NCBI GenBank assembly: GCA_958296055.1
Contig: CATQHS010000001.1
Coordinates: 413,917-477,916, forward strand
DNA from: an uncultured Acidimicrobiales bacterium
GTDB lineage: Bacteria > Actinomycetota > Acidimicrobiia > Acidimicrobiales > Aldehydirespiratoraceae
Reading direction: 5' to 3'
Length of the DNA: 64,000 bases
Positions 1-21,329 of this stretch are shown here, in pieces. Both the position numbers and the translations under genes were made by a program. The stretch's first letter is position 1, and each line of letters opens with the position of its first letter. The notes beneath the pieces are model-generated. The model was not told the DNA's origin, did no database searches, and saw only the letters and a program-made list of their open reading frames with translations.

Positions 1-970
1 CCTTCTCGTCGTCGGGGGCCCATGACGCCTCGATCCCGTCGAGGGCGATGGCCTCCATCTCCTCCAGGGTGTAGTCGAAGGCTTCGGCCACGGCCACGTA
101 CTCATCGGCGACGTCGAAGCGCATCATGCCGGGGTCGTCGGAGTTGACGGTGGCCAGCACCCCCAGTTCCCGTTGGCGGGCGATCGGATGCGAGGCCACG
201 TCAGGCACCACGTTGGCGATCATGACGTTGGAGGTGGGGCACACGGTCAGCGGTATCTGCCGGTCGATGATCTCGTCGGTCAGGGCGGGGTCGTCGAGGA
301 GCCGGAACCCGTGGTCGATCCGGTCGCAGCCGAACTCTCGCACGCCGATGGCGATGTTCTCGGCCGGACCGTCCTCGCCAGCGTGCATGGTCCGCTTCAG
401 ACCGGCCCGGCCCGCGGCGGCGTAGGCCTCGGCGAAGGCCCGGTGGTCGATGCCGCGCTCCACCGAGTCGGCCCCCATCCCGATCAGCAGGTCTCGGTCC
501 TGGGCGGCGGCGAACTCGGCCATCTCCAGCGCGTGGCCCGGGCCCGACGGCTTGTCGAAGTCCAGGATCATGCGGCAGCCCACGTCCAAGTCGGCCCGGG
601 CGTCTACCACCGCGGCCGACACCCCTTCCCACACCGTCGACACCGGCACCCCGAGCCTGATCACGAAGCCGGGCGAGAAGAACATCTCCCGGTAGCGGAC
701 CCCGGCGGACACCGCGTCCTCGAGGCACTCGTAGGTGATGCGGTGGAAGTCGTCCGCGCTTTGGAGGCTGGCGCAGATCACGTCGTAGATGTCGAGGAAC
801 TGGTTGAGGCTGGTGAACTTATACAGGTCGGCCGGGTCGTCCACGGGGAACTCGACCCCGTTGCGCCGGGCCAGATCGGCGATGGTGGAGGCCCGGCTGG
901 CCCCCTCTATGTGGCAGTGCAGCTCCACCTTCGGGAGCCTCCGCAGGTGCTCGGCAGCGGCGACGGTCAT
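1..970 (-). CDS. add: Adenosine deaminase family protein, copy 1 (C-terminus outside window)
   Basis: This is a zinc-dependent purine nucleoside deaminase (adenosine to inosine is the family's usual reaction). Reading leftwards from the ATG at 970 it shows the family motifs in order: ELHCHIEGA (HxH zinc ligands) near residue 17, HAGE (His and catalytic Glu), DHG, and NSDDPG (Asp ligand). It is a close paralogue of the gene at 2048-3091, nearly identical over long stretches. The start is supported by AGGAGG placed 4 bases upstream. The ATG overlaps the stop of the Rieske gene (ATGA), so the two are probably translationally coupled. The stop codon lies left of the window. It is the last visible gene of a nucleoside uptake operon. 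Confidence 0.9.
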   Translation of the reverse strand, partial: MTVAAAEHLRRLPKVELHCHIEGASRASTIADLARRNGVEFPVDDPADLYKFTSLNQFLDIYDVICASLQSADDFHRITYECLEDAVSAGVRYREMFFSPGFVIRLGVPVSTVWEGVSAAVVDARADLDVGCRMILDFDKPSGPGHALEMAEFAAAQDRDLLIGMGADSVERGIDHRAFAEAYAAAGRAGLKRTMHAGEDGPAENIAIGVREFGCDRIDHGFRLLDDPALTDEIIDRQIPLTVCPTSNVMIANVVPDVASHPIARQRELGVLATVNSDDPGMMRFDVADEYVAVAEAFDYTLEEMEAIALDGIEASWAPDDEK

Positions 971-2010
971 CGGTCCTCCTCGTCGAGGTCGGCGGTCACG
1001 GTCCCGTACTCTATTCCCCGGTCGCGCAGCCATTTGCGGTAGGCCAGGCTGCCGGCATCGGCGGGCTGGTGGGACTCCAGGGCGGGGGCTGTCGGCAGCC
1101 TGCGGGGCCGCTGCGACTCCACCACCTCGATGTCCTGGGCGAATATGAGGTCGTTGAAGGCCTGCTGGGCGTCGAGGTCGGCGCCGTCGTCGGCCACCGC
1201 CGTCGAGCGCCACACCACGCAGGTGGTCTCGTCAATGGGGCTGACCGCGATGAGGATGGAGAACCCGCCCGCCCCGTCGTCAGGGATCTTGGTGAGGACG
1301 GCGGCGTAGGGGTGCGACACCGAGTACTCGTAGCGCACCGGGCCGCCCCCGGAGGCGGCCGGGCCGGGCCGGGGCTGCCAGAACACGCAGTCGGTGAGCC
1401 GCAGCTCGCCGTCGTCGGCCTTCACCCGGTAGCGGCCCACCTCGGTGTGGGGGACTTGGCCCAGATAGCCGGCGTGCACGAACGGGAAATGGGCCAAGTC
1501 CAGGAAGTTCTCGATGATCCGCGGCCCCGACGAGCGCACCGTGACCGGGTCCAGCCACACCGTCCGGTCGGGATGGGCCGCATGCATCGGGGCCCGGGGC
1601 AGTTCCCGGGGCCGGTCCCCGACGCAGACCCACCAGAACCCGTAGCCGAGGCGGGTCGAGACCCGGCGCAGGCAGGCCCTGGCCCCCGGCCGCCGGTCGG
1701 GGTGGGCGGGCTGGCGGACGCAGCCGCCGTCGGCGTCGAACTGCCAGCCGTGGTAGCCGCACTGGATCAGCTCGCCGTCGAAGGTTCCCAGGCTCAGCCG
1801 GGCCCCCCGGTGGGGGCAGGTGTCGACGAACGCCTCCGCTCGCCCGTCGTCGAAGGCGGCCAGCACGTAGCGCTCGTCGAGCAGCTCGAACCGGCGCCAC
1901 GACCCGGAGGCCACTTCGGCGGCCCGGGCCACCGGGAACCACTCGTCGCGGATCCGGTCGCCGCTCGGCGACTCCCCGGCCCCATCCCCGCGGCCCCGGT
2001 CGCCGGTCAA
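967..2010 (-). CDS. Rieske non-heme iron oxygenase, alpha-subunit type
   Basis: This is a full-length Rieske oxygenase of the vanillate demethylase / NdmA-NdmB type. The N-terminal [2Fe-2S] motif is CPHRGA followed by CGYHGW, near residues 60-85 from this start. The mononuclear iron site is NFLDLAHFPFVH, and an AQDIEVVE segment carries a likely Asp ligand. Such enzymes take electrons from a partner reductase and often remove N- or O-methyl groups. A candidate reductase is encoded at 13068-14840. The gene sits between two adenosine deaminase paralogues on the same strand and overlaps the downstream one by ATGA. The start is uncertain: TTG at 2010 avoids overlapping the upstream gene, whereas an ATG at 2094 would add a low-complexity tail overlapping it. 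Substrate is unknown; N-demethylation of a methylpurine is inferred from context. Confidence 0.88.
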   Translation of the reverse strand: MTGDRGRGDGAGESPSGDRIRDEWFPVARAAEVASGSWRRFELLDERYVLAAFDDGRAEAFVDTCPHRGARLSLGTFDGELIQCGYHGWQFDADGGCVRQPAHPDRRPGARACLRRVSTRLGYGFWWVCVGDRPRELPRAPMHAAHPDRTVWLDPVTVRSSGPRIIENFLDLAHFPFVHAGYLGQVPHTEVGRYRVKADDGELRLTDCVFWQPRPGPAASGGGPVRYEYSVSHPYAAVLTKIPDDGAGGFSILIAVSPIDETTCVVWRSTAVADDGADLDAQQAFNDLIFAQDIEVVESQRPRRLPTAPALESHQPADAGSLAYRKWLRDRGIEYGTVTADLDEEDR

Positions 2011-2047: not shown

Positions 2048-3091
2048 TCAGGCGGCCCGGGCCTCAAGCCCGTACTCGGAGCGCAGATCGTCAAACTCGG
2101 CTTCGAATCGGCGACGAAGGGCAGCCTTCTCGTCGTCGGGCGCCCACGACGCCTCTATCCCGTCCAGGCTGACCGCCTCCATCTCCTCCAAGGAGTAGCC
2201 GAAGGCCCGGGCCACGGTCACGTACTCGTCGGCCAGGCTGAAGCGCATCATGCCCGGGTCGTCGGAGTTAAGCATGGCCAGCACCCCCCGCTCCCGTTGG
2301 CGGGCGAACGGGTGCGACTCGATGTCGGGCACCAGCTTGATGATCAGGTTGGAGGTGGGGCAGACCGTCAGCGGTATCCGCCGATCGACGATCTCGTCGG
2401 TCAGGGCGGGGTCGTCAAGGAGCCGGAAGCCGTGGTCGATGCGGTCGCAGCCGCAGTCGCGTACGGCCACGGCGATGTTGTCGGCCGGCCCGTCCTCGCC
2501 CGCGTGCATGGTGCGTTTGAGCCCGGCCCGGCCCGCGGCGGCGTAGGCGTCGGCGAAGACGGTGTGGTCGACGCCGCGCTCCACCGAGTCGGCGCCCATC
2601 CCGATCAGCAGGTCCCGGTCTTGGGCGGCGGCGAACTCGGCCATCTCCAGCGCGTGGCCCGGGCCCGACGGCTTGTCGAAGTCCAAGACCATGCGGCAGA
2701 AGATGTCCAAGTCGGCCCGGGCGTCTACCACCGCGGCCGACACGCCTTCCCACACCGTCGACACCGGCACCCCGAGCTTGATGACGAAGCCGGGCGAGAA
2801 GAACGTCTCGCAATAGCGGATCCCGGCTCCGGCCGCGTCCTCGAAGCACTCGTAGGCGATGCGGTGGAAGTCGTCCGCGCTTTGGAGGCTGGCGCAGACC
2901 ACGCCATAGATGTCGAGGAACTGGTTGAGGCTGGTGAACTTGTACAGGTCGGCCGGGTCGTCCACCGGCAGCTCAACCCCGTTGGCGCCGGCCAACTCGG
3001 CGATGGTGGCGGCCCGGCTGGCCCCCTCTATGTGGCAGTGCAGCTCCACTTTCGGGAGCCGCCGCAGATGTTCGTCGGAGGCGACGGTCAC
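2048..3091 (-). CDS. add: Adenosine deaminase family protein, copy 2
   Basis: A 347-residue metal-dependent purine nucleoside deaminase. Visible motifs are ELHCHIEGA (HxH), MHAGED (His and catalytic Glu), RIDHGF and NSDDPGMM (Asp). The length is normal for bacterial Add. The GTG start is preceded by AGGAGG at 5-base spacing. It lies just downstream of two nucleoside-type ABC permeases and just upstream of the Rieske oxygenase, in one minus-strand run. It differs from copy 1 by scattered substitutions, for example SNLIIKLVPDIE in copy 2 against SNVMIANVVPDVA in copy 1, near the C-terminal third. The two may therefore have diverged in substrate preference. The family assignment is firm; the exact nucleoside is not shown. 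Confidence 0.92.
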   Translation of the reverse strand: MTVASDEHLRRLPKVELHCHIEGASRAATIAELAGANGVELPVDDPADLYKFTSLNQFLDIYGVVCASLQSADDFHRIAYECFEDAAGAGIRYCETFFSPGFVIKLGVPVSTVWEGVSAAVVDARADLDIFCRMVLDFDKPSGPGHALEMAEFAAAQDRDLLIGMGADSVERGVDHTVFADAYAAAGRAGLKRTMHAGEDGPADNIAVAVRDCGCDRIDHGFRLLDDPALTDEIVDRRIPLTVCPTSNLIIKLVPDIESHPFARQRERGVLAMLNSDDPGMMRFSLADEYVTVARAFGYSLEEMEAVSLDGIEASWAPDDEKAALRRRFEAEFDDLRSEYGLEARAA

Positions 3092-3120: not shown

Positions 3121-4119
3121 TCAGCGCTCCTCGCGCCAGTACGGGATGGCCAGGGCGCCGGGCGCGGCGGTGGCCCGGACCCGCCGGCCGATCTTGGCCG
3201 CCCCGGCCGGGATCAGGATGGCGATCAGGGTCACCACGTAGGGCAGCATCGACAGGAAGAAGCTCAGGTCGCTGGGACCGAAGAACGGCAGCTCCCAGCC
3301 TCGGGCCTGGGCGGTGGTGTCCAGCGAGATCATCGACCCGTACAGCAGGGCCCCGGCCACCACCCACCCGGGCCGCCAGCCGGCGAAGATCACCACGGCC
3401 AGCGCCACCCAGCCCCGGCCCCGGGCGATATCGGGCGACCAGGTGGGGGTGAAGGACAGCACCATGTAGGCACCGCCCGCACCGGAGAGGGCCGCGCCCA
3501 GCACCGTGTAGCCCAGCCGGGAGCGCATCACGCTCACCCCGACCGCGTCGGCCGCGGCCGGGTTCTCCCCCACCGCCCGCATGTTCATGCCATGGCGGGT
3601 GCGGAACAGCAGGAACCACAGCGCCACCGGCATGGCGATGTAGGCCAGGTACACGATCGGGTCGTGGAACAAGAAGGCCTCCAAGACGGAGCCGTCTTCG
3701 AAGCTTCCGCCCAGGCTGACTTCCTGGAAGGTGTTCTGGATGGGGGTGCCGTTGCGGTTGGTGCCCAACTGGTTGGACAGCCCCACGCCGCCCAGGGCCA
3801 GGGCCAAGCCGACGAGCACCTGGTTGGCCCGGAACACCACCACCGCCACCGCGAAGATCAGGCCGGCCAGCGCGGCGGCGGCCATGCCGATCAGCAGGGC
3901 CAGCCACGGGCTGGTGATTCCCCAGGACAGCACCGCGATCACCGCGTACACCGCCCCCACGCCGATCAGCCCCTCCTGGCCCAGGTTCAGCACCCCCACC
4001 CGCTCGCCGAGCATGGCCCCGGTGGCGGCCAGCAACACCACGGTGCTGGCCGGGATGGCCGAGCCGACCAGGCTCAAGAAGGCGTTGTCGATGAGGGCGA
4101 GCACCTGGGCCGAGATCAT
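3121..4119 (-). CDS. Nucleoside-type ABC transporter permease (NupQ-like)
   Basis: A 332-residue membrane protein with about eight to ten hydrophobic segments and the signature MLGERVGVLNLGQEGLIGVGA near residue 35. That signature is typical of the BmpA-linked permeases (BPD_transp_2 family) that import nucleosides in Gram-positive bacteria. It forms the membrane channel with the permease encoded immediately upstream; the two genes overlap by ATGA (4116-4119). The adjacent ATPase and BmpA-type lipoprotein complete the transporter. The three ADA-family deaminases in the same run support nucleosides or modified nucleosides as cargo. Cargo is inferred, since related systems also carry other solutes. 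Confidence 0.9.
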   Translation of the reverse strand: MISAQVLALIDNAFLSLVGSAIPASTVVLLAATGAMLGERVGVLNLGQEGLIGVGAVYAVIAVLSWGITSPWLALLIGMAAAALAGLIFAVAVVVFRANQVLVGLALALGGVGLSNQLGTNRNGTPIQNTFQEVSLGGSFEDGSVLEAFLFHDPIVYLAYIAMPVALWFLLFRTRHGMNMRAVGENPAAADAVGVSVMRSRLGYTVLGAALSGAGGAYMVLSFTPTWSPDIARGRGWVALAVVIFAGWRPGWVVAGALLYGSMISLDTTAQARGWELPFFGPSDLSFFLSMLPYVVTLIAILIPAGAAKIGRRVRATAAPGALAIPYWREER

Positions 4120-5264
4120 GTCGTCGCCCCTTCCAGAACGGCGTCGCCGGACCCGTCAACGCCGCCGGATCCGCCCGCGTCGCCGGATTCGTCAACGCCG
4201 CCGTCGGCGTCGGCTCGCTCGAGGCGGAAGCGGGCCGCGATCTCGCCCAGGGCGATGCCGGTGAGGATGATCCCGTACATGCCGAAGATGATGTACACCG
4301 ACAGGCCCTTGGTCTGCAGCACCAAGCCGGCGTAGAACATCGAGGCGATGAACACGCCGCCGCCGATCACCCCGGCAAAGGAGGCGCCGGCCAGGGCGGC
4401 CACGATGAACCCGGACAGGCCGAACTGGGCCGAGAAGCCGGCGTTGAGGGCCTGGGCGCCGGGGGCGCTGAGCTGGAGCATCCCGCCCAGGCCGGCGATG
4501 GCCCCGGTGACCAGCATCACCGTCAGTATCCGCCGCCGCACCCGGATGCCGGCGAACCCGGCGGCCCGGGGGTTGCCGCCGATGGTGTCGATCTCGTAGC
4601 CGACGGTGGTGGACCGGAACACCCACCACAGCGCCAGCGCGATCAGAAAGGGGACTAGCAGGGCGACGGTCAGCGATTTGCTCCCGGGCAGGTCCGGCAG
4701 GGTGAACGGCACCTTCTCGGTGGACTGGATCACCGCCGCCTTCTTGTCGCGCCAGAACCCCAGCGCCGACCAGGTCACAAGCTGAATGGCCACGAAGTTC
4801 AACAGCAAGGTGGTGATGATCTCGTTCACGTCCCAGAAGGCCCGGGCCAGCGCCGGCAACAGGATCCAGGCCGCCCCCGCGGCTATGGCGGCCAAGGCCA
4901 TGGCCGTCAGCACCAGCCAGCCCGGCCCGTCCATGTGGATGCCCACCCCCACCGCGGCGAAGGCCCCCACCAAGAACTGGCCGTCCGAGCCGATGTTCCA
5001 CACCTTCATGCGCAGCGACAGGGCCACCCCCAGGGCGGTCATCAGGATGGGGATGGCCCGCAGGGCCACCCCCTCGATGCCGCGCTGGCTCCCGAAGATG
5101 GCCTTGAGGGCCTCGAAGAAGATCCAAAACGGGTTGCGGCCCGTCAGCAGCAGCAGCAGGCCGACCAGCAGCAGCGCCCCCACTGCCCCGGCCACCCGGG
5201 TGAGCGCGGCGGTGCGGGCGTCGGTGTCGAGGCGGCGGACCAGCCGCCAGCGGCCGAAGGTCAC
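4116..5264 (-). CDS. Nucleoside-type ABC transporter permease (NupP-like)
   Basis: A 382-residue permease of the same family and second half of the channel pair. Characteristic text includes SLRMKVWNIGSDGQFLVGA (about residue 82) and ILLNFVAIQLV-like and GNPRAAGFAGI segments, found in the longer subunit of BmpA-dependent transporters. The C-terminus has a Gly/Asp-rich tail (DADGGVDESGDAGGSGG). The GTG start is the only initiator in the frame after the upstream ATPase gene stops at 5326. No good ribosome binding site is visible, so it may depend on coupling. It overlaps the next permease by four bases. Confidence 0.88.
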   Translation of the reverse strand: MTFGRWRLVRRLDTDARTAALTRVAGAVGALLLVGLLLLLTGRNPFWIFFEALKAIFGSQRGIEGVALRAIPILMTALGVALSLRMKVWNIGSDGQFLVGAFAAVGVGIHMDGPGWLVLTAMALAAIAAGAAWILLPALARAFWDVNEIITTLLLNFVAIQLVTWSALGFWRDKKAAVIQSTEKVPFTLPDLPGSKSLTVALLVPFLIALALWWVFRSTTVGYEIDTIGGNPRAAGFAGIRVRRRILTVMLVTGAIAGLGGMLQLSAPGAQALNAGFSAQFGLSGFIVAALAGASFAGVIGGGVFIASMFYAGLVLQTKGLSVYIIFGMYGIILTGIALGEIAARFRLERADADGGVDESGDAGGSGGVDGSGDAVLEGATT

Positions 5265-5325: not shown

Positions 5326-6834
<1,509 letters not shown>

Positions 6835-6923: not shown

Positions 6924-8135
6924 TCAGATGCCGGACACGCCCTCGACCGCCCAGTCGATGGCGTAGCCGCCCTTCGAGTCGAGGGCCTCGCCCGCGGCCA
7001 GCCTCTGGTTGCCCTCGTTGTCGTTCAGCGGGCCCTGGTAGACGCTCAGCTCGCCGCTGTCGATGGCGGCCCTGGCCGCGGCCACCTCGTCCTTGACGTG
7101 CTGGGGGACGTTGGGGCCCCAGTCGCTCAGGGGGTTGTCCAGCAGGATCACATCGCCCTCTGCGACCGATGCCCAGGTGCCGTTGAGCACCCGCCGGCAC
7201 TGCTCGGTGTAGAAGGGGCCGAGTTCGGTCAGCTCGAAGCTGGCCACGAACTTGGTGGGGGCGGCGTTGCGGGCCGAGGCGAAGTCGCCGTTCCAGTACC
7301 CGGTCCAGATCCCGGCCTCCTCGGAGATCTGCATGAAGGTGGGCTCGTCCATGACCCCGAACAGGAAGTCCACCCCGCTGTCGAGCAGGGCGTTGGCAGC
7401 CTGGGCCGCCTTCTGGGGGTCGAAGAAGGTGCTGACCAGCACCGTCTCCACCACCGCGTCGGGGTTCACGCTGCGGGCCCCCAGCAGCAGGCCGTTGACG
7501 TCGTTGTAGGCGGTGGCGGTGGGGAAGGCCCCGATGTAGCCGATCCGGCCGTTGGCGGCCATGTGCCCGGCGGCGATCCCCAGCAGGTAGGCCGGTATCT
7601 CGTGGGCCAAATAGAACGGGAGTATGTTATCCAGCCAGGTGTGGCCGTTGGTCTCCACGAAGAAGGTGTCGGGGTTTTCTTCGGCCACAACGCTCATCAA
7701 CCCGGCGTACTCGGTGTTGGCGAAGATGAGGTGGTTGCCGTCGTCCACGAGCTGCTGGAAGAGCTGGGTGGTGGAGGCGTCGAAGCCGATGTTGGGGGTG
7801 TAGGCCGTCTCCAGTTGATCGCCCAAGGCGTTCTGGGCGACCTGGCGGCCGATGTCGTGCGCCTCAGTCCAGCCGTTGTCGTCGGGCGGGCCGATGTAGA
7901 CCCAGTGGGCCTTCACTTTGTCGAGGCCGGGGGCGGCGGTGGTGGCCGCCGCCGCGGTAGTGGCGGGCGCCGCCGTCGTGGTGGCAGTGGACCCGCTGTC
8001 GTCGCCTCCGCAAGCGGCCAGCACTGAGCCGCCCACGGCGAGGCCCCCGATGCCCACCGCGCCCATCTTGAGCGCCTCTCGGCGCGACACCGCCGCGGTG
8101 CGGGGAAGGATCAGCTTAGAACTTTTCTGGGTCAT
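6924..8135 (-). CDS. BmpA/PnrA-family substrate-binding lipoprotein with TAT signal
   Basis: A 403-residue solute receptor of a nucleoside ABC importer. The N-terminus has a twin-arginine motif (SRREALKMG) followed by a hydrophobic stretch and lipobox LAACGG at about residues 40-45, so it is probably exported folded and lipidated. A Thr/Ala-rich linker precedes the PnrA-like domain, which begins KVKAHWVYIGPPDDNGWTEAH. The start ATG at 8135 is the first codon that includes the whole signal. It is transcribed ahead of the ATPase and both permeases. BmpA/PnrA relatives bind purine nucleosides; the ligand here is inferred. Confidence 0.92.
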   Translation of the reverse strand: MTQKSSKLILPRTAAVSRREALKMGAVGIGGLAVGGSVLAACGGDDSGSTATTTAAPATTAAAATTAAPGLDKVKAHWVYIGPPDDNGWTEAHDIGRQVAQNALGDQLETAYTPNIGFDASTTQLFQQLVDDGNHLIFANTEYAGLMSVVAEENPDTFFVETNGHTWLDNILPFYLAHEIPAYLLGIAAGHMAANGRIGYIGAFPTATAYNDVNGLLLGARSVNPDAVVETVLVSTFFDPQKAAQAANALLDSGVDFLFGVMDEPTFMQISEEAGIWTGYWNGDFASARNAAPTKFVASFELTELGPFYTEQCRRVLNGTWASVAEGDVILLDNPLSDWGPNVPQHVKDEVAAARAAIDSGELSVYQGPLNDNEGNQRLAAGEALDSKGGYAIDWAVEGVSGI

Positions 8136-8187: not shown

Positions 8188-9210
8188 TCAGTCGATCTGG
8201 GCGGCCAGCTCGTCGAACTCTATGGCCCACTGGCGGCGCATGGCCCGCTTCTCGGGCTCGTCGAGCCAGGACCCGTCGATGCCGTTGAGCATGCACTGGC
8301 GGAAGTCCTCGACTTCGAACCCCATGTGGTTGTGGGCCACGATGTAGTCGCGGGTGGGGTCGGTCTTGAACATGGGCGGGTCGTCGCAGTCGAGGCTGAT
8401 CTTGATGCCGAACTCGCGCATCTTCCCGAGGGGGTGGCTGCCGAAGTCGTCACCGAAGTAGACCCAGGCGGTGGACACGGGGGTGCAGGTGAACACCACC
8501 CCATCGTCGCGGCAGCGGCGCATGATGGCCTCGCTATCGACCACGTGGTAGCCGTGGTCGACCCGCTCGCAGCCCAGCAGGTCTAGGCAGGTCTCGATGT
8601 TGCGGGGCGGCGCGTCCTCGGACTGGTGGGCGGTGAGGTGCAGCCCGGCAGCCTCAGCCATGCTGAAGGCCTTCCAGAACCGCTCGGGCGGGTAATCGGC
8701 CTCGGCGTAGTCCAAGCCGATGCCGATCACCTCCTTGCGGGGGTGCTCCAGCAGCGTCTCGACCATGGAGACCCCCAGCTCGGGGCTCTCCATGCGGTTG
8801 ATGGCCGCGATCAGCCGGCACTCGATCCCGTGGTCGGCGCGGGCCGCGTTGATGCCGTCGATTAGCCCGTCCACGCAGGTGGGGTAGTCCACCCCAGCCG
8901 CCAGGTGGGCGGTGGGGTTGAAGAACATCTCCCGGTAGCGCACGTTGTGCTCGGCCGCCTCGGTGAGGGTCTCGTAGCAGATCCGCTCGAAGTCCTCCCG
9001 GTCGATCACCCCCAGCGAGGTGTTGTCGTACATGTGCAGGAACTTGTAGATGTCGGGGTAGTCGTAGAGGTCCTCGGGCTCGTCGTAGTCGGGCAGGGGA
9101 ACGCCGTGCTTGTTGCACAGGTCCACCGCGGTGCGGGCCTGCACCGACCCCATCAGGTGCAGGTGCAGACTGACCTTGGGTATCGCCTTCAAGAAGGTGT
9201 CCATGTCCAT
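8188..9210 (-). CDS. Divergent adenosine-deaminase-family hydrolase
   Basis: A 340-residue ADA-family protein at the head of the transporter operon, clearly distinct from the two Add paralogues downstream. Zinc-site text is VSLHLHLMGS (HxH kept), TAHQSEDAP (His and Glu kept, but the usual HAGE is HQSE), RVDHGYH and SLDCDDPPM (in place of NSDDP). The metal ligands and catalytic Glu therefore seem present while the substrate-contact positions differ. That suggests a non-adenosine substrate, perhaps another aminopurine nucleoside or base. ATG occurs at residues 1 and 3; GAGGAGG lies 11 bases upstream of the first. It ends 52 bases before the BmpA gene start. Confidence 0.85.
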   Translation of the reverse strand: MDMDTFLKAIPKVSLHLHLMGSVQARTAVDLCNKHGVPLPDYDEPEDLYDYPDIYKFLHMYDNTSLGVIDREDFERICYETLTEAAEHNVRYREMFFNPTAHLAAGVDYPTCVDGLIDGINAARADHGIECRLIAAINRMESPELGVSMVETLLEHPRKEVIGIGLDYAEADYPPERFWKAFSMAEAAGLHLTAHQSEDAPPRNIETCLDLLGCERVDHGYHVVDSEAIMRRCRDDGVVFTCTPVSTAWVYFGDDFGSHPLGKMREFGIKISLDCDDPPMFKTDPTRDYIVAHNHMGFEVEDFRQCMLNGIDGSWLDEPEKRAMRRQWAIEFDELAAQID

Positions 9211-9338: not shown

Positions 9339-10802
9339 GTGGCCAGGGGGATGCAGACCGGGACGGAGAACGGCGGGCGATCCGAGACACAGACCGGAAC
9401 GGGCACCGGGGCCGGGGCCGGGACGGAGGCCGGGGGCGGGCGGGTCGACCTGTGCGTCCGGGGCGCCGAGCTGGTGGTGACCATGGACGCCGACCGCCGC
9501 GAGATCCCCGGCGGCTGGGTGGCCGTCACCGACGGGCTCGTCGCCGCGGTGGGGCCCCCGGGCCGGGAGCCCGAAGCCGAGCGGGTGATCGACGCCGGCG
9601 GCTGTTTGGTCACGCCCGGGCTCGTCAACACCCATCACCACATCTACCAGAACCTCACCCGGGCCTTCGCCCCGGCCCTGTCGGGAAACCTCTTCGACTG
9701 GCTGCGCACCCTGTACCCGGTGTGGTCCCGCCTCGACGAGGAGGCGGCCTACGTGTCGGCCTGGGTGGGGCTGAGCGAGCTGGCCCTGGGCGGCTGCACC
9801 ACCACCACCGACCACCTCTACGTTCACCCCCGGGGAGGCGGCGACCTGATCAGCGCCGAGATCGCGGCCGCGGCCGAGCTCGGCTTCCGCTTCCACCCGA
9901 CTCGGGGGTCGATGAGCCTGTCGGTGAAGGACGGGGGCCTGCCCCCCGACTCGGTGGTCCAAGACGACGACGAGATCCTGGCCGACTCCGAAAGACTGGT
10001 GGCCGCCCACCACGACCCGGCGCCGGGGGCCATGGTGCGGGTCGCTTTGGCCCCGTGCTCGCCGTTCTCGGTGACGCCCGAGCTGATGGCCCGCACCGCC
10101 GAACTGGCCGAGCGGCTCGACGTGCGGCTGCACACCCACCTGGCCGAGGACGCCGACGAGGACGCCTACTGCGAGGCCGCGTTCGGGCGCCGGCCCATCG
10201 AGCACTTCGAAAGCGTGGGCTGGGGATCGGACCGGGCCTGGGTGGCCCACTGCGTCTTCCCCAGCCCCGCCGAGATCGCCCGGATGGCGGGCTGGGGGAC
10301 CGGGGTGGCCCACTGCCCCAGCTCCAACCAGCTAATCGGCGCGGGCCTGGCCCCGATCCGGGAGATGCGAGACGCGGGCGTCCCGGTGGGCATCGGCTGC
10401 GACGGCTCGGCCTCCACCGACTGCGCCAGCCTCTGGCTCGAGACCCGGGGGGCGCTGCTGCTGGCCCGGCTGCGGGGCGGGCCCGAGGCCATGAGGGCCA
10501 GGGAGGCCCTGGAGATGGCCACCCTGGGCGGCGCCGCCTGCCTGGGCCGAGACGACATCGGCGCCCTGGAACCGGGCCGGGCCGGCGACTTGGTGGTCTG
10601 GCCCCTGGAGGGGGTGGCCTTCGCCGGGGCCCTGTCCGACCCGGTCGAGGCTCTGCTGCGCTGCGGGCCGACGGCGGCCCGCCACACCGTCGTGGCCGGG
10701 CGGCTGCTGGTCGAAGACGGGGCGCTCGCCTCCGGGGGAACCGCCGAGATGCTGGGCCGCCACCGCCGGATCGCCGCCGACTGGCTGGCGAGCTGCGGCT
10801 AG
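9339..10802 (+). CDS. Amidohydrolase, 8-oxoguanine deaminase / hydroxyatrazine hydrolase type
   Basis: A metal-dependent amidohydrolase of about 487 residues. Visible motifs are GLVNTHHHIYQNLTRA (HxH plus the QNLTRAF signature of 8-oxoguanine deaminases), TTTTDHLYV, a THLAED segment, WVAHCVF and GIGCDGSASTD (Asp ligand). The first 40 residues are low-complexity Gly/Thr. Starts compete: GTG 9339, or ATG 9351 with AGGGGG abutting it. It is transcribed away from the ADA-like gene across a 128-base intergenic region. Its stop codon interlocks with that of the convergent amidohydrolase in a shared CTAG. Likely reaction: hydrolytic deamination of an oxidised or substituted purine. The substrate is an inference. 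Confidence 0.85.
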   Translation: MARGMQTGTENGGRSETQTGTGTGAGAGTEAGGGRVDLCVRGAELVVTMDADRREIPGGWVAVTDGLVAAVGPPGREPEAERVIDAGGCLVTPGLVNTHHHIYQNLTRAFAPALSGNLFDWLRTLYPVWSRLDEEAAYVSAWVGLSELALGGCTTTTDHLYVHPRGGGDLISAEIAAAAELGFRFHPTRGSMSLSVKDGGLPPDSVVQDDDEILADSERLVAAHHDPAPGAMVRVALAPCSPFSVTPELMARTAELAERLDVRLHTHLAEDADEDAYCEAAFGRRPIEHFESVGWGSDRAWVAHCVFPSPAEIARMAGWGTGVAHCPSSNQLIGAGLAPIREMRDAGVPVGIGCDGSASTDCASLWLETRGALLLARLRGGPEAMRAREALEMATLGGAACLGRDDIGALEPGRAGDLVVWPLEGVAFAGALSDPVEALLRCGPTAARHTVVAGRLLVEDGALASGGTAEMLGRHRRIAADWLASCG

Positions 10803-12148
10803 ATCGGGGCTAGGGCGGCCCGCCGCTCGAACAGCTCCTCGGCCGCGGCCTGGGCCCGGGCCGCGACGGCGGAGACGTCCACCGAGACCACCCGGCCGGC
10901 CGCCACCAGCCGCCGGCCCCGCACCCACACGTCGCTGACGTCGCGGGCCGAGGCGGTGAACACCAGATGGGCGGGGGCGTTGAAGTCGCGCCCGTGCAGC
11001 ACCGGCACGAAGTGGAGGCCGGACAGGTCCACCGTCACCACGTCGGCGTCCTTGCCCGCGGTGAGCGTCCCGGTCGCGTCCCCCAGTCCCAGCGCGGCGG
11101 CCCCGGACCGGGTGGCCATGTCCAGCACGTCCCAGGGGTCCCCGACGACGGGGTCCAGGGCGGCCACCTTGGCCAGCAGCGACGCGAACTTCATCTCCTC
11201 GAGCATGTCGAGGTTGTTGTTCTCCTTCTCGCCGTCGGTGCCCAGCCCCACCGTCACCCCCTGGCTGCGGTAATAGCCGATCCGGGCCGGGCCCGAGGCC
11301 AGCTTCATGTTCGAGCACGGGCAGTGGACCAGCGCCGTGCCGGTTTCGGCCATCAGGCTCACCTCGCGGTCGTCGAGCCAGACGCCGTGGGCCACCACGG
11401 TGCGCTCGCCGAGCACGCCCCGGTTGTAGAACTCCTCGACGGGCCGGCGCCCGAACTGGCGCAGGCACTCCTGCACCTCCCAGATCGACTCGGAGGAATG
11501 AGTGTGCAGCCCGGTGTCGAACTCGGCGGCCAGTTCGGCCGCGGCCCGGCACATCTCGGGCGAGCAGTAGAACATGTGCTCCAGCCCGACCCAGATCCGC
11601 ACCCGCCCGTCGGCCGCGCCGTGATGGGACTCCAGCAGGCGCCGGTTGGTCTCCAGGGTCTCGAACCAGTCGTAGCGATCGGCGGTGTAGGGGGCCAGGG
11701 TGGCCCGGATGCCGATCTCCTCCGCGGCCCGGGCCGAGCCCTCCATGAACCGCCACATGTCCAGCACCGAGGTGGTCCCGCCCCTCAGGCCCTCGGCGTA
11801 GGCCATGTAGGAGGCGGCCTCGGCGATCTCGGGGGTGAGGGCCCGGTGGGCCGGGTCGACGTGGTTCTGCAGCCACTCCCACAGCGCCATCGACTCGGCC
11901 GTGCCCCGCAGCAGGCCGGAGTGGAGGTGGCCGTTGTGCAGGCCGGGGATCACCGCGCATCCGGCGGCGTCGATCACCTCGGCGGCCGCCGCGGCCGGAT
12001 GGGCGTCCACCTCGACCACTGCGCCGACCGCGGCGATGGTCTCGCCGGTCATCAGCACCGACCCGGGGTCGTGGGCGACCCGGTCGCCTTCCATGGGCAG
12101 CACGATCCCGCCTCGGATCAAGGTGGGCCGCTCGGTCACGGCGGCCAC
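10799..12148 (-). CDS. Amidohydrolase, SAH/methylthioadenosine deaminase (ATZ/TRZ) type
   Basis: A 449-residue amidohydrolase. Motifs are VIPGLHNGHLHSGLLRG (HxH), GLHTHSSES, VVAHGVWLDD, VHCPCSNMKLASG and GLGTDGEKENNN (Asp ligand), as in S-adenosylhomocysteine / 5-methylthioadenosine deaminases and triazine hydrolases. It should remove an amino group from an adenine-like ring. The GTG at 12148 is taken because it includes the N-terminal beta strand TLIRGGIVLPMEG. It diverges by only 56 bases from the NdmC-like gene and converges with the 8-oxoguanine deaminase-like gene. Context supports a role in the purine-derivative pathway. Confidence 0.85.
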   Translation of the reverse strand: MAAVTERPTLIRGGIVLPMEGDRVAHDPGSVLMTGETIAAVGAVVEVDAHPAAAAAEVIDAAGCAVIPGLHNGHLHSGLLRGTAESMALWEWLQNHVDPAHRALTPEIAEAASYMAYAEGLRGGTTSVLDMWRFMEGSARAAEEIGIRATLAPYTADRYDWFETLETNRRLLESHHGAADGRVRIWVGLEHMFYCSPEMCRAAAELAAEFDTGLHTHSSESIWEVQECLRQFGRRPVEEFYNRGVLGERTVVAHGVWLDDREVSLMAETGTALVHCPCSNMKLASGPARIGYYRSQGVTVGLGTDGEKENNNLDMLEEMKFASLLAKVAALDPVVGDPWDVLDMATRSGAAALGLGDATGTLTAGKDADVVTVDLSGLHFVPVLHGRDFNAPAHLVFTASARDVSDVWVRGRRLVAAGRVVSVDVSAVAARAQAAAEELFERRAALAPI

Positions 12149-12204
12149 GTTAGGTCTTCGCCGAATCTTCGCAAAGACCGGCGCCCGCGGTAATCTCCCC
12201 CGCG

Positions 12205-13065
12205 GTGAGCGTTTCGGGCGTTTGCGCCGACCCGGTGGTGCGAGATCAGTGGTACGCGCTGGCCGCGGTCGACGAGATCGGCGCCGATGTGAGCACCCGG
12301 CTGCTGGGCCTGCCCATCGGCTACGGCCTCGGCCCCGGCGGGGCGGCCCGGGCCTGGCGGGCCGATGACGGGGCGCCGATCCCGGCCCGGGTGTCCTACG
12401 GCTACCTGTGGGCCAGCGTCGGCGAACCGCCGGCCGAGGTGTTCGACGTGCCCGAGACCCGCGAGCCCGACCGGCGGATCTTCAACGCCGGCACCCTGGG
12501 GCTGGCGGTGTCGGCCCCCCGGGCGGTGGAGAACTTCCTCGACATCGCCCACTTCCCCTACGTTCACCGGGGGCTGCTGGGCGACGAGCCCCACACCGAG
12601 GTGGCCGACTACGACGTGGTCGACCGCGACGGCGAGATCTGGGCTCTGGGCTGCCGGTTCCACCAGCCCCGGGCCGCGGCCGCCTCCACCGAGGAAGTGG
12701 TGGCCCAGTACCAGTACCGGGTGCCCCACCCCTACTGCGCCATGCTCTACAAGAGCGCCCCCGGCCACCCCGACCGGCTCGACGCCATGGGCATCTTCAC
12801 CCACCCCCTCGACGACGAGCGGATCCGGGCCCACCTGTTCCTGTGCCTGCTCGACGACGTGAACACCGACGCGACCATCCGCCGGTTCCAGCAGACGATC
12901 CTGGCCCAGGACATGCCCATCCTGGAGAACCAGCACCCCAAGCGGCTGCCGCTGGACCCCCGGGCCGAGACGCCGGTGCGCTGCGACAAGACGGCCATCG
13001 CCTACCGGCGCTGGCTGAGCAGCCTGGGGGTCACCTACGGGGTGATCCCGGCCGGGGCGGGCTGA
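12205..13065 (+). CDS. Rieske-less non-heme iron oxygenase, NdmC-like
   Basis: A 286-residue oxygenase chain with only the catalytic half of a Rieske oxygenase. The mononuclear iron motif NFLDIAHFPYVH lies near residues 110-121, and the C-terminal AQDMPILENQHPKRLP segment with an Asp ligand is present. The CxH...CxxH Rieske motif expected near residues 60-90 is absent; that stretch is short and holds no Cys/His pair. In Pseudomonas putida CBB5 the N7-demethylase NdmC is known to have exactly this defect and to borrow the extra Rieske domain of the reductase NdmD. Here the next gene, two bases downstream, is a Rieske-reductase fusion. GTG start. The likely role is demethylation of an N-methylpurine; specificity is inferred. 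Confidence 0.88.
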   Translation: MSVSGVCADPVVRDQWYALAAVDEIGADVSTRLLGLPIGYGLGPGGAARAWRADDGAPIPARVSYGYLWASVGEPPAEVFDVPETREPDRRIFNAGTLGLAVSAPRAVENFLDIAHFPYVHRGLLGDEPHTEVADYDVVDRDGEIWALGCRFHQPRAAAASTEEVVAQYQYRVPHPYCAMLYKSAPGHPDRLDAMGIFTHPLDDERIRAHLFLCLLDDVNTDATIRRFQQTILAQDMPILENQHPKRLPLDPRAETPVRCDKTAIAYRRWLSSLGVTYGVIPAGAG

Positions 13066-13067
13066 AG

Positions 13068-14840
13068 GTGGCCGAGACCGTGAGCCCGGGGGACGGCGGG
13101 CCGGGCCCGGCCTCTGATCCCCGCCACCGGTGGCACCCGATCGCCGCCGTCGACGACCTGGTGTTCCGCCACGTGTACCACGGGAAGCTGCTGGGGCGGG
13201 AGCTGGCCGTGTGGCGGGCCGACGACGGCTTCGTCAACGTCTGGGAGAACCGCTGCCTGCACCGGGGGGTGAGGCTGTCCATCGGGGCGAGCGACGGCCG
13301 GGAGCTGGTCTGCGCCTACCACGGCTGGCGCTACGCCAACCGGACCGCGGGCTGCACCTACATCCCGGCCCACCCGGCCGACGCCCCGGCCCGCACCATC
13401 TGCAACCGCACTTTCGTTGCCGTGGAGCGCTACGGGCTGGTCTGGTCGGCCGAGGACCCCGAAGGCGAGGCCCCTCCGGAGGCGGCCGAGCTGGCCGGGG
13501 CCGAGACGCTGGTGCTGCGCAACCTGCCGGTCAACGCCGGGGCTGGCCTGGTGATCGACGGGCTGGCCGGCTACGACCCCGAGTCGTTGGCCGCAGTGGC
13601 CCGCCGCACCGGCGACGCCGCGGCTCTACAACTCGGCGACGGGACGGCGATCGTGTTCTTCGTGCAGCCGGTGGACTCGGACCGCTCGGTGATCCGCCCG
13701 GTCATGACCCCGGCCCCGCCCGCCGCCGACCGCATCGGGGTCCTGCGCCGCCACAGCGCCGCGCTGGAGGCGCTGCGCAAGAACCTGGAGGAGGAGGCCG
13801 CCCGCCGCCCCCCGGCCGAGCCCATGACCCCGGCGCTGGAGCAGGTGCCGATCCACTTGGCCGAGCTGCCCGAGCCGTCGCCCCGGGGCCGCCAGGCCCC
13901 GCTGCGGGTCCGGGTGGCCCGCAAGTGGGACACCGCCGCCGACGTGGCCGCCTTCGAGCTGGAGTCCATCGCCGGGCAGCTCCCCACCTTCCAGCCCGGC
14001 GCTCACATCGACGTCCACCTCGCCAACGGTCTGGTCCGCCAGTACTCGCTCACCAACGGGCCGGGCCAGCTCGACCGCTACCGCATCGGGGTCAAGCTCG
14101 AGCCCGAGTCCCGGGGCGGGTCGGCGGCCATGCACCACACGGTGCGCGAGGGCGACGTCCTGGCCGTGTCCGAGCCCCGCAACAACTTCCCGCTGCGGCG
14201 CAACGCGGAGCGGACCGTCCTCATCGCCGGGGGCATCGGGATCACCCCGCTGCTGGCCATGGCCCAGGCCCTGCACCACTCCAACCTGGGCTTCGAGCTC
14301 CACTGCTTCGCCCGCAGCCCCGACCATCTGGCCTTCGGCGAGACGCTAGACCGGCTGGGGGACTCGGTCACCGCCCACCTGGGCCTGTCCCCGGCCGACA
14401 CCGCCGCCGCCATCGCCCGGGCCCTGGAGGGCCGCTCGCCCTCGGACCGGGTGTACGGGTGCGGCCCCGCCCCCATGCTGGCCGCGGTCCGGGAACTGGC
14501 CGAGGCTGCGGGCTGGCCCGCCGAGACCGTCCACTTCGAGTACTTCGCCAACCCGACCGAGATCGACGACAGCTCCAGCTTCGAGGTCGCCCTGGCCCGC
14601 TCGGCCCTGACGCTGGCGGTGCCGGCCGGGCGGACCGTGCTGGAGGTTTTGCGGGACAACGGGGTGGATGTGGCCTCGTCCTGCGAGGTGGGGGCCTGCG
14701 GGACCTGCTCGGTGGGGGTCATCGAGGGCGAGCCCGACCACCAGGACGTGTACCTCACCTCGGCCGAGAGAGCCGAGGGGGCCCGGATGATGGCGTGCGT
14801 CTCCCGGTCCCTCGGCCCCCGGCTGATCCTCGACCTGTAA
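13068..14840 (+). CDS. Rieske domain-reductase fusion, NdmD-like
   Basis: A protein of 590 residues from the GTG at 13068, two bases after the preceding stop. Domain order: Rieske [2Fe-2S] with CLHRGV and CAYHGW (about residues 63-86); a linker of about 200 residues with no iron-site His pair but with text such as FFVQPVDSDRS recalling the end of an oxygenase domain; a flavin domain (RQYSLTNGP, about 324); an NAD-binding domain (GGIGITPLLAMA, about 387); and a plant-type ferredoxin domain (CEVGACGTCS, about 539, and a later MACVSRS). NdmD of the caffeine pathway has this same Rieske-FNR-ferredoxin order. It should pass electrons from NAD(P)H to the Rieske-less oxygenase and perhaps to the full Rieske oxygenase at 967-2010. 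Confidence 0.9.
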   Translation: MAETVSPGDGGPGPASDPRHRWHPIAAVDDLVFRHVYHGKLLGRELAVWRADDGFVNVWENRCLHRGVRLSIGASDGRELVCAYHGWRYANRTAGCTYIPAHPADAPARTICNRTFVAVERYGLVWSAEDPEGEAPPEAAELAGAETLVLRNLPVNAGAGLVIDGLAGYDPESLAAVARRTGDAAALQLGDGTAIVFFVQPVDSDRSVIRPVMTPAPPAADRIGVLRRHSAALEALRKNLEEEAARRPPAEPMTPALEQVPIHLAELPEPSPRGRQAPLRVRVARKWDTAADVAAFELESIAGQLPTFQPGAHIDVHLANGLVRQYSLTNGPGQLDRYRIGVKLEPESRGGSAAMHHTVREGDVLAVSEPRNNFPLRRNAERTVLIAGGIGITPLLAMAQALHHSNLGFELHCFARSPDHLAFGETLDRLGDSVTAHLGLSPADTAAAIARALEGRSPSDRVYGCGPAPMLAAVRELAEAAGWPAETVHFEYFANPTEIDDSSSFEVALARSALTLAVPAGRTVLEVLRDNGVDVASSCEVGACGTCSVGVIEGEPDHQDVYLTSAERAEGARMMACVSRSLGPRLILDL

Positions 14841-14885
14841 CGCGGCCGTGACCGACGAGCAGACACGAGATCCGGGGCCGAAGCG

Positions 14886-15533
14886 GTGATCACCCTCTAC
14901 GACTACGAGCTGTCGGTGAACTGCTACAAGCAGCGGCTGATGATGGCCATCCTGGGGGTGGAGTACACGTCGGTGCCGGTCGACTTCTACCCGGGCTGGG
15001 AGCACAAGTCGGCCGAGTTCGCCAAGATCAACCCGCTGGGGCACATCCCGGTGATCGACGACGACGGCTTCATGCTGCGCGACGCCCACGCCATCCTCGT
15101 CTACCTGGCCTCCCGCTACGACCCGAGCCGGCTGTGGTACCCGGTGGACGACCCCTGTCGGCTCGGGGAGACGGCCCAGTGGATGCTCTTCGCCGAGGGC
15201 ACCACCAACACGGCCTCGTCGGCCCGGCTGCACGACAACCTGGGCTATGACTTCGACATCGACGCGGTGCGGGCCGGCGCCCACAAGCTGTTCCGGGTGA
15301 TGGACGAGCACCTGTGGTTCCGCGAGCGCGAGGGCCTCGACTGGGTGGTGTCGGGGGCGCACCCGACCATCGCCGACATCGCCTTGTTCCCCGACGTGGC
15401 CCTGTCCGAGGAGGGCGGGATCTCCCGGCTGGACTATCCGGCCCTGCGGCGCTGGACCGACCGGGTGCGGCGCATTCCCGGCTTCGTCACCATGCCCGGC
15501 GTGATCGCCCTCGGAGAGTCCCCCTGGGACTGA
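14886..15533 (+). CDS. Glutathione S-transferase-like protein, NdmE-like
   Basis: A 215-residue GST-fold protein. The N-terminal thioredoxin-like half begins MITLYDYELSVNCYKQRLM with the cis-Pro segment GHIPVIDDD and the DAHAILVYLA helix. The all-helical half contains the N-capping-like HPTIADIALFPD. Actinobacteria generally lack glutathione, so a structural role is plausible. In Pseudomonas, the GST-like NdmE is needed to hold the NdmC-NdmD N7-demethylase complex together. The position directly after NdmC-like and NdmD-like genes, 45 bases downstream on the same strand, fits that role. The start is GTG at 14886. A catalytic GST cannot be excluded. Confidence 0.87.
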   Translation: MITLYDYELSVNCYKQRLMMAILGVEYTSVPVDFYPGWEHKSAEFAKINPLGHIPVIDDDGFMLRDAHAILVYLASRYDPSRLWYPVDDPCRLGETAQWMLFAEGTTNTASSARLHDNLGYDFDIDAVRAGAHKLFRVMDEHLWFREREGLDWVVSGAHPTIADIALFPDVALSEEGGISRLDYPALRRWTDRVRRIPGFVTMPGVIALGESPWD

Positions 15534-15563: not shown

Positions 15564-15593
15564 GAGCCTCCCCGGGACTGGCCCGGGAGGCTC
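15564..15593. terminator. Bidirectional hairpin between convergent genes
   Basis: The arm GAGCCTCCCCGGG (15564-15576) pairs with CCCGGGAGGCTC (15582-15593) around a 5-base loop, with one bulged C. It lies between the convergent NdmE-like and XdhC genes and reaches the XdhC stop codon. There is no T-tract on either side, which is usual for hairpin terminators in GC-rich actinobacteria. Confidence 0.6.
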
Positions 15594-18466: not shown

Positions 18467-20824
<2,358 letters not shown>

Positions 20825-20834
20825 TGGCGGTCTC

Positions 20835-21329
20835 CTAGCTGTCGGCGCCGGCGGCGGCGGTGGCCTTGGCCTCGGCGGCCGCCCGGATGGACTTCACGAT
20901 GTTCATGTATCCCGTGCACCGGCACAGGTTCCCGGATATGGCCCAGCGGATCTCCTCGTCGGAGGGGTCGGGGTTCTGCTCCAACAGGGCCGCCCCCACC
21001 AGCATCATGGCCGGGGTGCAGAACCCGCACTGCAGGCCGTGCTCATCGGAGAACGCGGTCTGCACCGGGTGGAGCTCGCCGCCCGACTTGAGGCCCTCGA
21101 CGGTGGTGACCGAGCGGCCGTCGGCCTGCACGGCCAGCACCGTGCACGACTTGACCGGGGCGCCGTCGAGCAGCACGGTGCACACTCCGCAGCTCGTGGT
21201 GTCGCAGCCGATGTGGGTGCCGGTCAGGCCCACGACGGTGCGGATGTGGTCCACCAGCAGCTTGCGGGGCTCCACGTCGGCGGTGTGGTCGGTTCCGTTG
21301 ACGTTGACGGTCACTTCCATGGCGGTCAT
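20835..21329 (-). CDS. coxS: CO dehydrogenase small (2Fe-2S) subunit
   Basis: A 164-residue iron-sulfur subunit that carries electrons between the Mo site and FAD. The plant-type cluster ligands lie in [16 protein letters not shown] with a later SC. The second cluster ligands are CGFCTPAM and CRCTGY. The ATG at 21329 overlaps the coxM stop (ATGA); a second ATG lies three codons in. It is followed by coxL 10 bases after the stop. The C-terminus is Ala-rich. Confidence 0.95.

Follow-up and report, generated by a model that had tools for sequence, protein, structure and literature searches.

A probable split Rieske oxygenase for methylated purines in an uncultured Acidimicrobiales bacterium

What would a set of genes resembling the methylxanthine demethylase NdmCDE do in an actinobacterial genome? 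The set in question lies at positions 12205-15533 of a 64,000-nucleotide stretch of DNA from an uncultured Acidimicrobiales bacterium (assembly GCA_958296055.1, contig CATQHS010000001.1, positions 413,917 to 477,916), the whole of which we refer to as the window. In Pseudomonas putida CBB5, NdmC is described as lacking a Rieske domain, NdmD as supplying one, and NdmE as a structural partner resembling glutathione S-transferases (GSTs), the three forming a 3:3:3 complex that N7-demethylates 7-methylxanthine (PMC4408171, PMC10380055) and that needs the GST for solubility (PMC10380055). In that strain frmA and frmB flank ndmABCDE, and the review reporting this calls NdmCDE "very unique" and, in its available text, discusses it within caffeine degradation (PMC4408171). 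For the window we think it fairly probable, from sequence and predicted structure, that the three genes encode a split Rieske oxygenase that would N-demethylate a scavenged methylated purine, probably a methylguanine, with release of formaldehyde; the recycling of such purines, and not the use of caffeine, is its likely role. Its features are these.

12205..13065, plus strand: NdmC-like oxygenase, 286 amino acids, a Rieske oxygenase alpha-subunit without its cluster-binding lobe and with the iron site intact
12532..12567, plus strand: iron-site motif NFLDIAHFPYVH of the NdmC-like protein, residues 110-121 (D113, H116, H121), from the translation
13068..14840, plus strand: NdmD-like reductase, 590 amino acids, GTG start, with Rieske, FNR and Fer2 domains
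13122..13457, plus strand: Rieske [2Fe-2S] domain of the NdmD-like protein, residues 19-130 (PF00355, 58.6 bits, residues 22-103)
13254..13322, plus strand: Rieske ligands C63-x-H65 ... C82-x2-H85, invariant in 42 aligned rows
13437..13898, plus strand: residues 124-277 of the NdmD-like protein, proposed to be a Rieske-oxygenase catalytic domain that has degenerated and has no iron ligands (hhalign)
13899..14837, plus strand: flavin/NADH and plant-type ferredoxin domains, residues 278-590 (2pia and 6icm matches)
14886..15533, plus strand: NdmE-like GST-fold protein, 215 amino acids, GST_N/GST_C

The open reading frames, their frames and the gaps between them (2 nt between NdmC and NdmD, 45 nt between NdmD and NdmE) are as an earlier sequence-only reading of this DNA had given them. 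Upstream of its GTG at 13068 the NdmD-like frame stays open through the oxygenase gene, which is read in another frame; counted from that GTG, the first nearly invariant residue is W22. The same reading had held that the oxygenase lost its Rieske domain, and Pfam indeed finds VanA_C, KshA_C below cut-off and no Rieske domain, but only the cluster-binding lobe is gone: 272 of the 286 residues of the NdmC-like model can be aligned with residues 1-334 of the chain of a full Rieske oxygenase, and the profile alignment opens a 48-residue gap at the cluster lobe. For comparison with relatives, a scan of named genomes returned at least 533 stretches, of which the best 80 by score were kept for locus counts, made with phmmer searches of the locus ORFs; this choice biases the sample toward the clade of the window. 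The iron-site motif was said to be kept, and its ligands D113, H116 and H121, together with D236, are invariant across the 53 rows of the NdmC-like alignment, while D-x2-H-x4-H occurs in 134 of the 135 NdmC-like sequences without a Rieske motif from the window and the loci. The profile comparison with NdmA-E that had been proposed as a check came out in favor of an NdmCDE-like set, with the domain order of NdmD in the reductase, a ferredoxin match to 6icm, and 46% identity of the oxygenase to P. putida NdmC (282 columns, residues 6-281 of 286, E=3e-87). The latter sequence (our P0138) is UniRef M1EY73, "Methylxanthine N7-demethylase", found by a search with a P. putida plasmid relative; we take it to be the CBB5 protein, the record giving the species P. 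putida and no strain. Identity to the Rieske-bearing oxygenase of the window itself is 37% over 231 columns.

In the reductase, a Rieske domain ahead of flavin and ferredoxin domains had been claimed, and Pfam and the 2pia match bear this out. Pfam detects the Rieske and Fer2 domains, with NAD_binding_1 below cut-off; the flavin/NADH part is known from the match of residues 278-590 to phthalate dioxygenase reductase 2pia (E=1e-63); over the ferredoxin part there is also a match to the NdmD chain in PDB 6icm (E=3e-16). The Rieske motif is present in all 77 full-length NdmD-like sequences, and a Rieske domain in 74 of the 76 reductase-type ORFs of the window and loci, the other 2 being without it. 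The NdmD-like protein has 8 matches in the genome at E<=1e-5, one of them over the reductase half and 7 over the Rieske part only. In Pseudonocardia dioxanivorans (L055, 9424-12858, plus strand) only the N-terminal half of NdmD is encoded, without a reductase half; it continues into a stretch similar to OHCU decarboxylase, beyond which the frame makes no sense.

The region between the Rieske and flavin domains of NdmD suggests how the two proteins may fit together. This linker matches the NdmC family by hhalign (E=4e-5), none of 200 column permutations scoring as high, and the D-x2-H-x4-H iron motif is found in none of the 44 linker sequences. NdmC and NdmD thus look like reciprocally amputated copies of a Rieske oxygenase, a reading that is new as far as our literature searches reach. 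Since NdmC is without the cluster lobe and residues 124-277 of NdmD are without the iron site, the N-terminal half of NdmD would take the place of the neighboring alpha-subunit and present its Rieske cluster to the NdmC iron. Such an arrangement would give electron delivery to a Rieske-less oxygenase a concrete geometry. Several observations pull the other way. The linker match spans only 32 columns at an hhalign probability of 70%, and the linker alone is weakly similar to the full-oxygenase profile (E=0.03); the NdmD-like model has a pTM of 0.64 and a low-confidence cluster lobe; and the 50 rows of its VIA-align search hold no Rieske oxygenase, only reductases and other proteins that match over the reductase half. 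Foldseek lists whole Rieske oxygenases for the same model (TM by target 0.49-0.55, rmsd 5.6-10.5), and with the two structure searches at odds the case for a degenerate domain rests mainly on the profile test.

If the NdmC-, NdmD- and NdmE-type proteins assemble into one split Rieske oxygenase, as we predict, electrons would pass from NADH to the flavin, the plant-type [2Fe-2S] cluster and the Rieske cluster, all within NdmD, and from there to the mononuclear iron of NdmC, the last step running via the bridging Asp113. The substrate would probably enter through the importer of the BMP type encoded nearby, the demethylated base would be deaminated by neighboring amidohydrolases, and the formaldehyde would go to a mycothiol-dependent formaldehyde dehydrogenase encoded elsewhere in the genome. 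NdmE would act as a structural partner.

That the third protein is GST-like had been stated and is confirmed by GST_N/GST_C; it has one match in the whole genome at E<=0.001. In 39 of 40 NdmE-like sequences from the loci, D-A stands where four solved GSTs have the pair E-S. The thiol of the host bears on this protein as well. No GSH synthetase of the GshB ATP-grasp type, the one route to glutathione that was sought, was matched in the genome, the family being found in 9 of 14 control genomes. A mycothiol-dependent formaldehyde dehydrogenase (MscR) lies about 210 kb from the window and is over its cut-off (658.1 versus 512.9), the one of 18 genome matches to TIGR03451 to be so; the best MshC match is under its cut-off (405.6 versus 485.1). 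To judge from these genes, the host likely uses mycothiol rather than glutathione. A scaffold role would fit the NdmE-like protein, short of proof, and a GST-fold subunit in a host that apparently makes mycothiol and not glutathione would be a clean case of the GST fold used as a scaffold.

What the minimal enzyme may look like is suggested by two Rhizobium loci (L102 and L103; INTERMEDIATES), which encode the Rieske half as a separate protein. In R. leguminosarum (L102) one row of genes encodes the Rieske protein (216 aa), NdmC, a GST, an amidohydrolase and an importer of the BMP type, and in R. tumorigenes (L103) a GST and the Rieske protein (220 aa) stand together, with NdmC beside a guanine deaminase. 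Rieske is the sole Pfam domain of both proteins, which toward the C-terminus are similar to the NdmD linker (E=6e-8 in L103, 2e-4 in L102), and the NdmC genes of these loci form, with one other protein, a group separate from the remainder (SH-aLRT 99). The likely core is thus an iron subunit, a Rieske subunit and a GST-fold protein, and fusion to the reductase was likely a later step added onto it, if two loci are a guide.

Whether the window enzyme simply repeats the CBB5 reaction is a question on which the phylogeny bears. We drew the rows of our quick tree, which is supported by SH-aLRT values and no bootstrap, from the 80 loci, from plasmid loci and from the 120 best hits of each of two protein searches, and thinned them at 70% identity; Rieske-bearing rows were removed from the NdmC set by motif beforehand, and the outgroup was made up of 12 of the 20 Rieske-bearing oxygenases found, two of these 12 having long branches. 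One branch separates 84 Rieske-less oxygenases from the 12 Rieske-bearing ones (SH-aLRT 99). On the Rieske-less side, M1EY73 belongs to a 9-row set (96), which also holds proteins named N7-demethylase from Paraburkholderia caffeinilytica and Pandoraea, and to a 21-row set (98). The window protein falls into sets of 17, 36 and 52 rows (95, 95 and 98) with rhizobial, nocardioidal and acidimicrobial companions, and does not group with M1EY73 to the exclusion of other clades. We therefore rejected a filing as plain caffeine NdmCDE, and 7-methylxanthine should not be assumed as the substrate. A true 7-methylxanthine N7-demethylase, fed by caffeine-type methylxanthines or by deaminated 7-methylguanine, would account for the 46% identity, the conserved iron-site residues and the same three-gene set. 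We nevertheless consider an unchanged CBB5 reaction rather unlikely, since the window NdmC lies outside the well-supported P. putida NdmC subclade, and since at eleven positions 28 rows on the side of the window are consistently unlike the nine rows of that subclade. Among these, positions 237-238 adjoin the ligand D236 and read K-P on the window side versus L-M in the caffeine subclade (M-P in the window itself); H175 versus R and P105 versus L are two further differences. The transporters differ too, with an importer of the BMP type here versus a nucleobase symporter at the P. putida and Klebsiella plasmid clusters.

The genome, of 3.3 Mb and 95% complete, holds a second Rieske-less NdmC-like gene (C1:614310-615200), 56% identical to the window copy and adjoining ribokinase-like and nucleoside-hydrolase-like genes, both under their cut-offs; no NdmD or NdmE match lies beside it.

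How regularly do the three genes travel together? The 80 loci comprise 46 from Alphaproteobacteria, 26 from Acidimicrobiia, 5 from Actinomycetes, 2 from Gammaproteobacteria and 1 from another actinomycetotal lineage (48 Pseudomonadota and 32 Actinomycetota). The best NdmC hit of every locus (320-415 bits) is without a Rieske motif, counted without the motif filter; among the 130 NdmC hits of at least 120 bits, 7 carry the motif (134-143 bits) and 123 do not, and in 7 of 80 loci a Rieske-bearing ORF of this kind adjoins NdmC. A fused NdmD lies within 1.5 kb in 72 of 80 loci, joined by an NdmE within 4 kb in 69, so that the earlier assignment to an NdmC-D-E-like set is supported by recurrence in two phyla. 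At least two importer genes stand within 10 kb in 55 loci (53 of the 70 that are at least 10 kb long), and 49 of 80 have all of these features together. Adding 8 loci from plasmids and the own genome gives 88 with a Rieske-less gene, of which 36 carry two and 5 carry three. Contig ends account for some missing partners (L092, L093, L099), and L066 has 3 kb of room. Of 148 genomes drawn from the class, two have all three genes (limits 1e-60 for NdmC, 1e-100 for NdmD and 1e-30 for NdmE), namely that of the window and one more, and the remaining 146 have not a single one; in these genomes the set is all or nothing, and patchy. Evolutionary distances of the three proteins correlate at 0.79-0.85 over 75 loci, and in 53 loci at 0.87-0.91 among themselves versus 0.68-0.75 with the importer ATPase, which fits co-evolution but, being uncorrected for species history, is not used as proof. 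The symbiotic megaplasmid pSymA of S. meliloti 1021 (NC_003037) carries two separate NdmC-NdmD-NdmE loci near 828 kb and 1,196 kb (L009 and L104), each with an importer of the BMP type and extra NdmC copies, and on a K. pneumoniae plasmid (L101, 9235-14764) a Rieske oxygenase, a TIM-barrel protein, NdmC, NdmD and a GST lie among insertion sequences.

Which purine, then, would be demethylated? The genes to the left of the set in the window are the following.

967..1977, minus strand: full-length Rieske oxygenase (Rieske and VanA_C), start codon approximate, best PDB matches SxtT and NdmA
2048..3091, minus strand: adenosine deaminase family protein (TIGR01430, 271.5 versus cut-off 216.55)
3121..4119, minus strand: ABC importer permease 2 (PF02653)
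4116..5264, minus strand: ABC importer permease 1 (PF02653)
5326..6834, minus strand: ABC importer ATPase with two ABC_tran stretches (PF00005)
6924..8135, minus strand: BMP/PnrA-type substrate-binding protein (PF02608, 86.6 bits)
8188..9210, minus strand: adenosine deaminase family protein (TIGR01430, 257.2, over cut-off)
9339..10802, plus strand: 8-oxoguanine deaminase family amidohydrolase (PRK08203, 614.9 versus cut-off 532)
10799..12148, minus strand: TRZ/ATZ-type amidohydrolase, divergent from the C-D-E genes (PF01979)
12149..12204, no strand: divergent intergenic region of 56 bp between this amidohydrolase and the C-D-E genes, a candidate promoter region on the basis of the gene coordinates

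The link to nucleoside import that had been proposed is supported, with a BMP/PnrA-type importer in the window and importer genes at most of the related loci, and the purine link proves broader than claimed, since guanine deaminase and FrmA or MscR also stand beside relatives. None of the 25 NCBIfam models listed for the TRZ/ATZ-type amidohydrolase is over its cut-off, and the full-length Rieske oxygenase is likely served by the NdmD-like protein; its region is overlapped by an adenosine-deaminase-type frame (2-1231, minus strand) that runs off the left edge of the window. Among relatives, guanine deaminase (TIGR02967) is over cut-off near L042, L078, L082, L085 and L096 and also on a plasmid of R. 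tumorigenes (L103), where its gene comes directly behind NdmC; at the acidimicrobial Ferrithrix locus (L046) a guanine-deaminase-type gene downstream is just below cut-off (360.4 versus 375.4). Together with the importer and formaldehyde genes near relatives, this points to methylated purine bases or nucleosides, those of guanine first; the N7 position is favored only because P. putida NdmC acts there. Demethylation of N6- or N1-methyladenine or their nucleosides, with adenosine-deaminase-type genes completing the breakdown, is a less probable solution than methylguanine and in our estimate an unlikely one: adenosine deaminase family genes do flank the window importer and recur in Acidimicrobiia loci, yet it is guanine deaminase that recurs over cut-off in Alpha- and Gammaproteobacteria and near cut-off in Ferrithrix, a one-sided comparison, since no search for adenine deaminase was made. 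An NdmC/NdmD pair of acidimicrobial origin (L072) has near it a pseudouridine-kinase-like gene under its cut-off (254-1207, minus strand), again hinting at modified-nucleoside breakdown.

The formaldehyde genes speak to the chemistry. FrmA directly follows NdmE in 13 of the 80 loci, all Hyphomicrobiales, and when one of them (L056) was scored with TIGR02818, the model for S-(hydroxymethyl)glutathione dehydrogenase, it exceeded the cut-off (579.5 versus 543.95); in Ferrithrix (L046, Acidimicrobiaceae) an S-(hydroxymethyl)mycothiol dehydrogenase lies two genes upstream of NdmC (638.2 versus 512.9), bringing the total to 14 of 80, 13 FrmA and 1 MscR. Two thiol systems thus give the same formaldehyde removal, which is what an oxidative demethylase would need. 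This tells against hydroxylation of the purine ring without loss of a methyl group, in the manner of the cofactor-independent xanthine hydroxylase HpxD, as does the fact that, of the proteins bearing the name of a characterized enzyme, the nearest is an N-demethylase. HpxD-annotated oxygenases are distant relatives and the setting is one of purine catabolism, but their records match query residues 64-276 only, at about 26% identity, and HpxD-type hydroxylases bear a Rieske domain that the window oxygenase is without; we regard such a reaction as very improbable. More improbable still is an ordinary aromatic O-demethylase, acting on vanillate- or guaiacol-type compounds and placed among purine genes by chance.

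Against N-demethylation of a methylated guanine by such a split enzyme, a number of points have to be set. In place of a guanine deaminase the window encodes a member of the 8-oxoguanine deaminase family, which may act on a different substrate, and the adenosine-deaminase-type genes nearby are as suggestive of adenine-type nucleosides as of guanine. Guanine-deaminase-type genes stand near only 6 of the 80 relatives, one of them just under cut-off; the FrmA linkage is limited to related Hyphomicrobiales; and the window holds no gene of the FrmA or MscR type, all 18 matches of the genome to TIGR03451 being located outside it. Fewer than two importer genes occur in 25 of 80 loci, 8 of these on loci shorter than 10 kb. 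Five Acidimicrobiia loci (L021, L023, L024, L025, L076) are without NdmD and NdmE despite 9-10 kb of room, and L097 is without NdmE, so that these loci would have to share partners in trans. All 40 NdmE-like sequences retain the active-site serine and the cis-proline usual in GSTs, so NdmE may have a catalytic GST role, and the tails of the separate Rieske proteins match neither NdmC nor the oxygenase profile. A bolder version of the proposal, in which the reciprocally amputated proteins form a mixed ring on a GST scaffold, demethylation of RNA-derived 7-methylguanine or 7-methylguanosine is the ancestral and dominant job in both phyla, and caffeine is a late offshoot, is one that we entertain as possible and would not bet on.

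To the right of the set lie an XdhC/CoxI-type maturation protein that carries a YHS domain fused at its C-terminus (15592-16566, minus strand) and, further on, the large and medium subunits of an aerobic CO dehydrogenase (18467-22189, minus strand), with the small iron-sulphur subunit apparently between them, from translation only. A xanthine dehydrogenase was considered for 18467-22189 and rejected, the large subunit scoring 1177.5 versus 991.15 with TIGR02416 and carrying AYRCSFR, which we take to be the motif of form I CO dehydrogenases; as the large subunit is of that type, these genes are not counted as purine evidence.

How far does this extend what has been described? The expectation that the system reaches beyond caffeine-degrading proteobacteria is borne out by the relatives in Actinomycetota, but its proteobacterial part was already published: homologous ndmCDE clusters, of function then unassigned, are reported from another 18 organisms. 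Those nearest to the CBB5 genes come from Janthinobacterium, Klebsiella and Pseudomonas, and most of the remainder from Sinorhizobium and Mesorhizobium (PMC4408171). A coffee-borer genome paper finds partial ndm sets in several bacteria and cautions that homologues need not act on caffeine (PMC8055839). A review of Rieske oxygenases from 2025 covers NdmA together with the ferredoxin domain of NdmD but, in its available text, never mentions NdmC (PMC12445004), and the structure of the complex was called unsolved in 2026 (PMC13237722). Our literature search, methylguanine and methylguanosine included, found no bacterial demethylase assigned to 7-methylguanine, and searches on split Rieske oxygenases, BMP importers and NdmC outside caffeine degraders gave nothing on point beyond the papers cited. 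As far as these searches go, an actinobacterial clade with importer, guanine-deaminase and mycothiol links is new. If methylated purines are the substrates, the split enzyme would be a widespread catabolic device for natural methylated purines, and bacteria would gain access through it to methylated bases from RNA turnover.

Set beside known systems, the trio is most like P. putida CBB5 NdmCDE, with which it shares the Rieske-less oxygenase, the reductase with an N-terminal Rieske domain and the GST-like protein, and from which it departs in its separate subclade, its adjoining importer of the BMP type and deaminases, and its likely mycothiol host. The Sinorhizobium and Mesorhizobium homologues belong to the same 52-row tree set (SH-aLRT 98) and share the C-D-E order and the importer of the BMP type; they differ in often having two tandem NdmC genes, a GntR regulator and, in some, FrmA downstream. 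NdmA and NdmB, the N1- and N3-demethylases, have a Rieske domain of their own and are 19-23% identical by structure alignment. Among solved structures, SxtT and SxtDIOX (GxtA), which are intact Rieske oxygenases of another pathway, come nearest to the oxygenase and to the Rieske part of the reductase, and the phthalate dioxygenase reductase 2pia, which is without the Rieske half, comes nearest to residues 278-590 of the NdmD-like protein. In the classical two-component type (VanAB, phthalate), finally, the Rieske domain sits in the oxygenase subunit, unlike in the window, where the oxygenase is without it.

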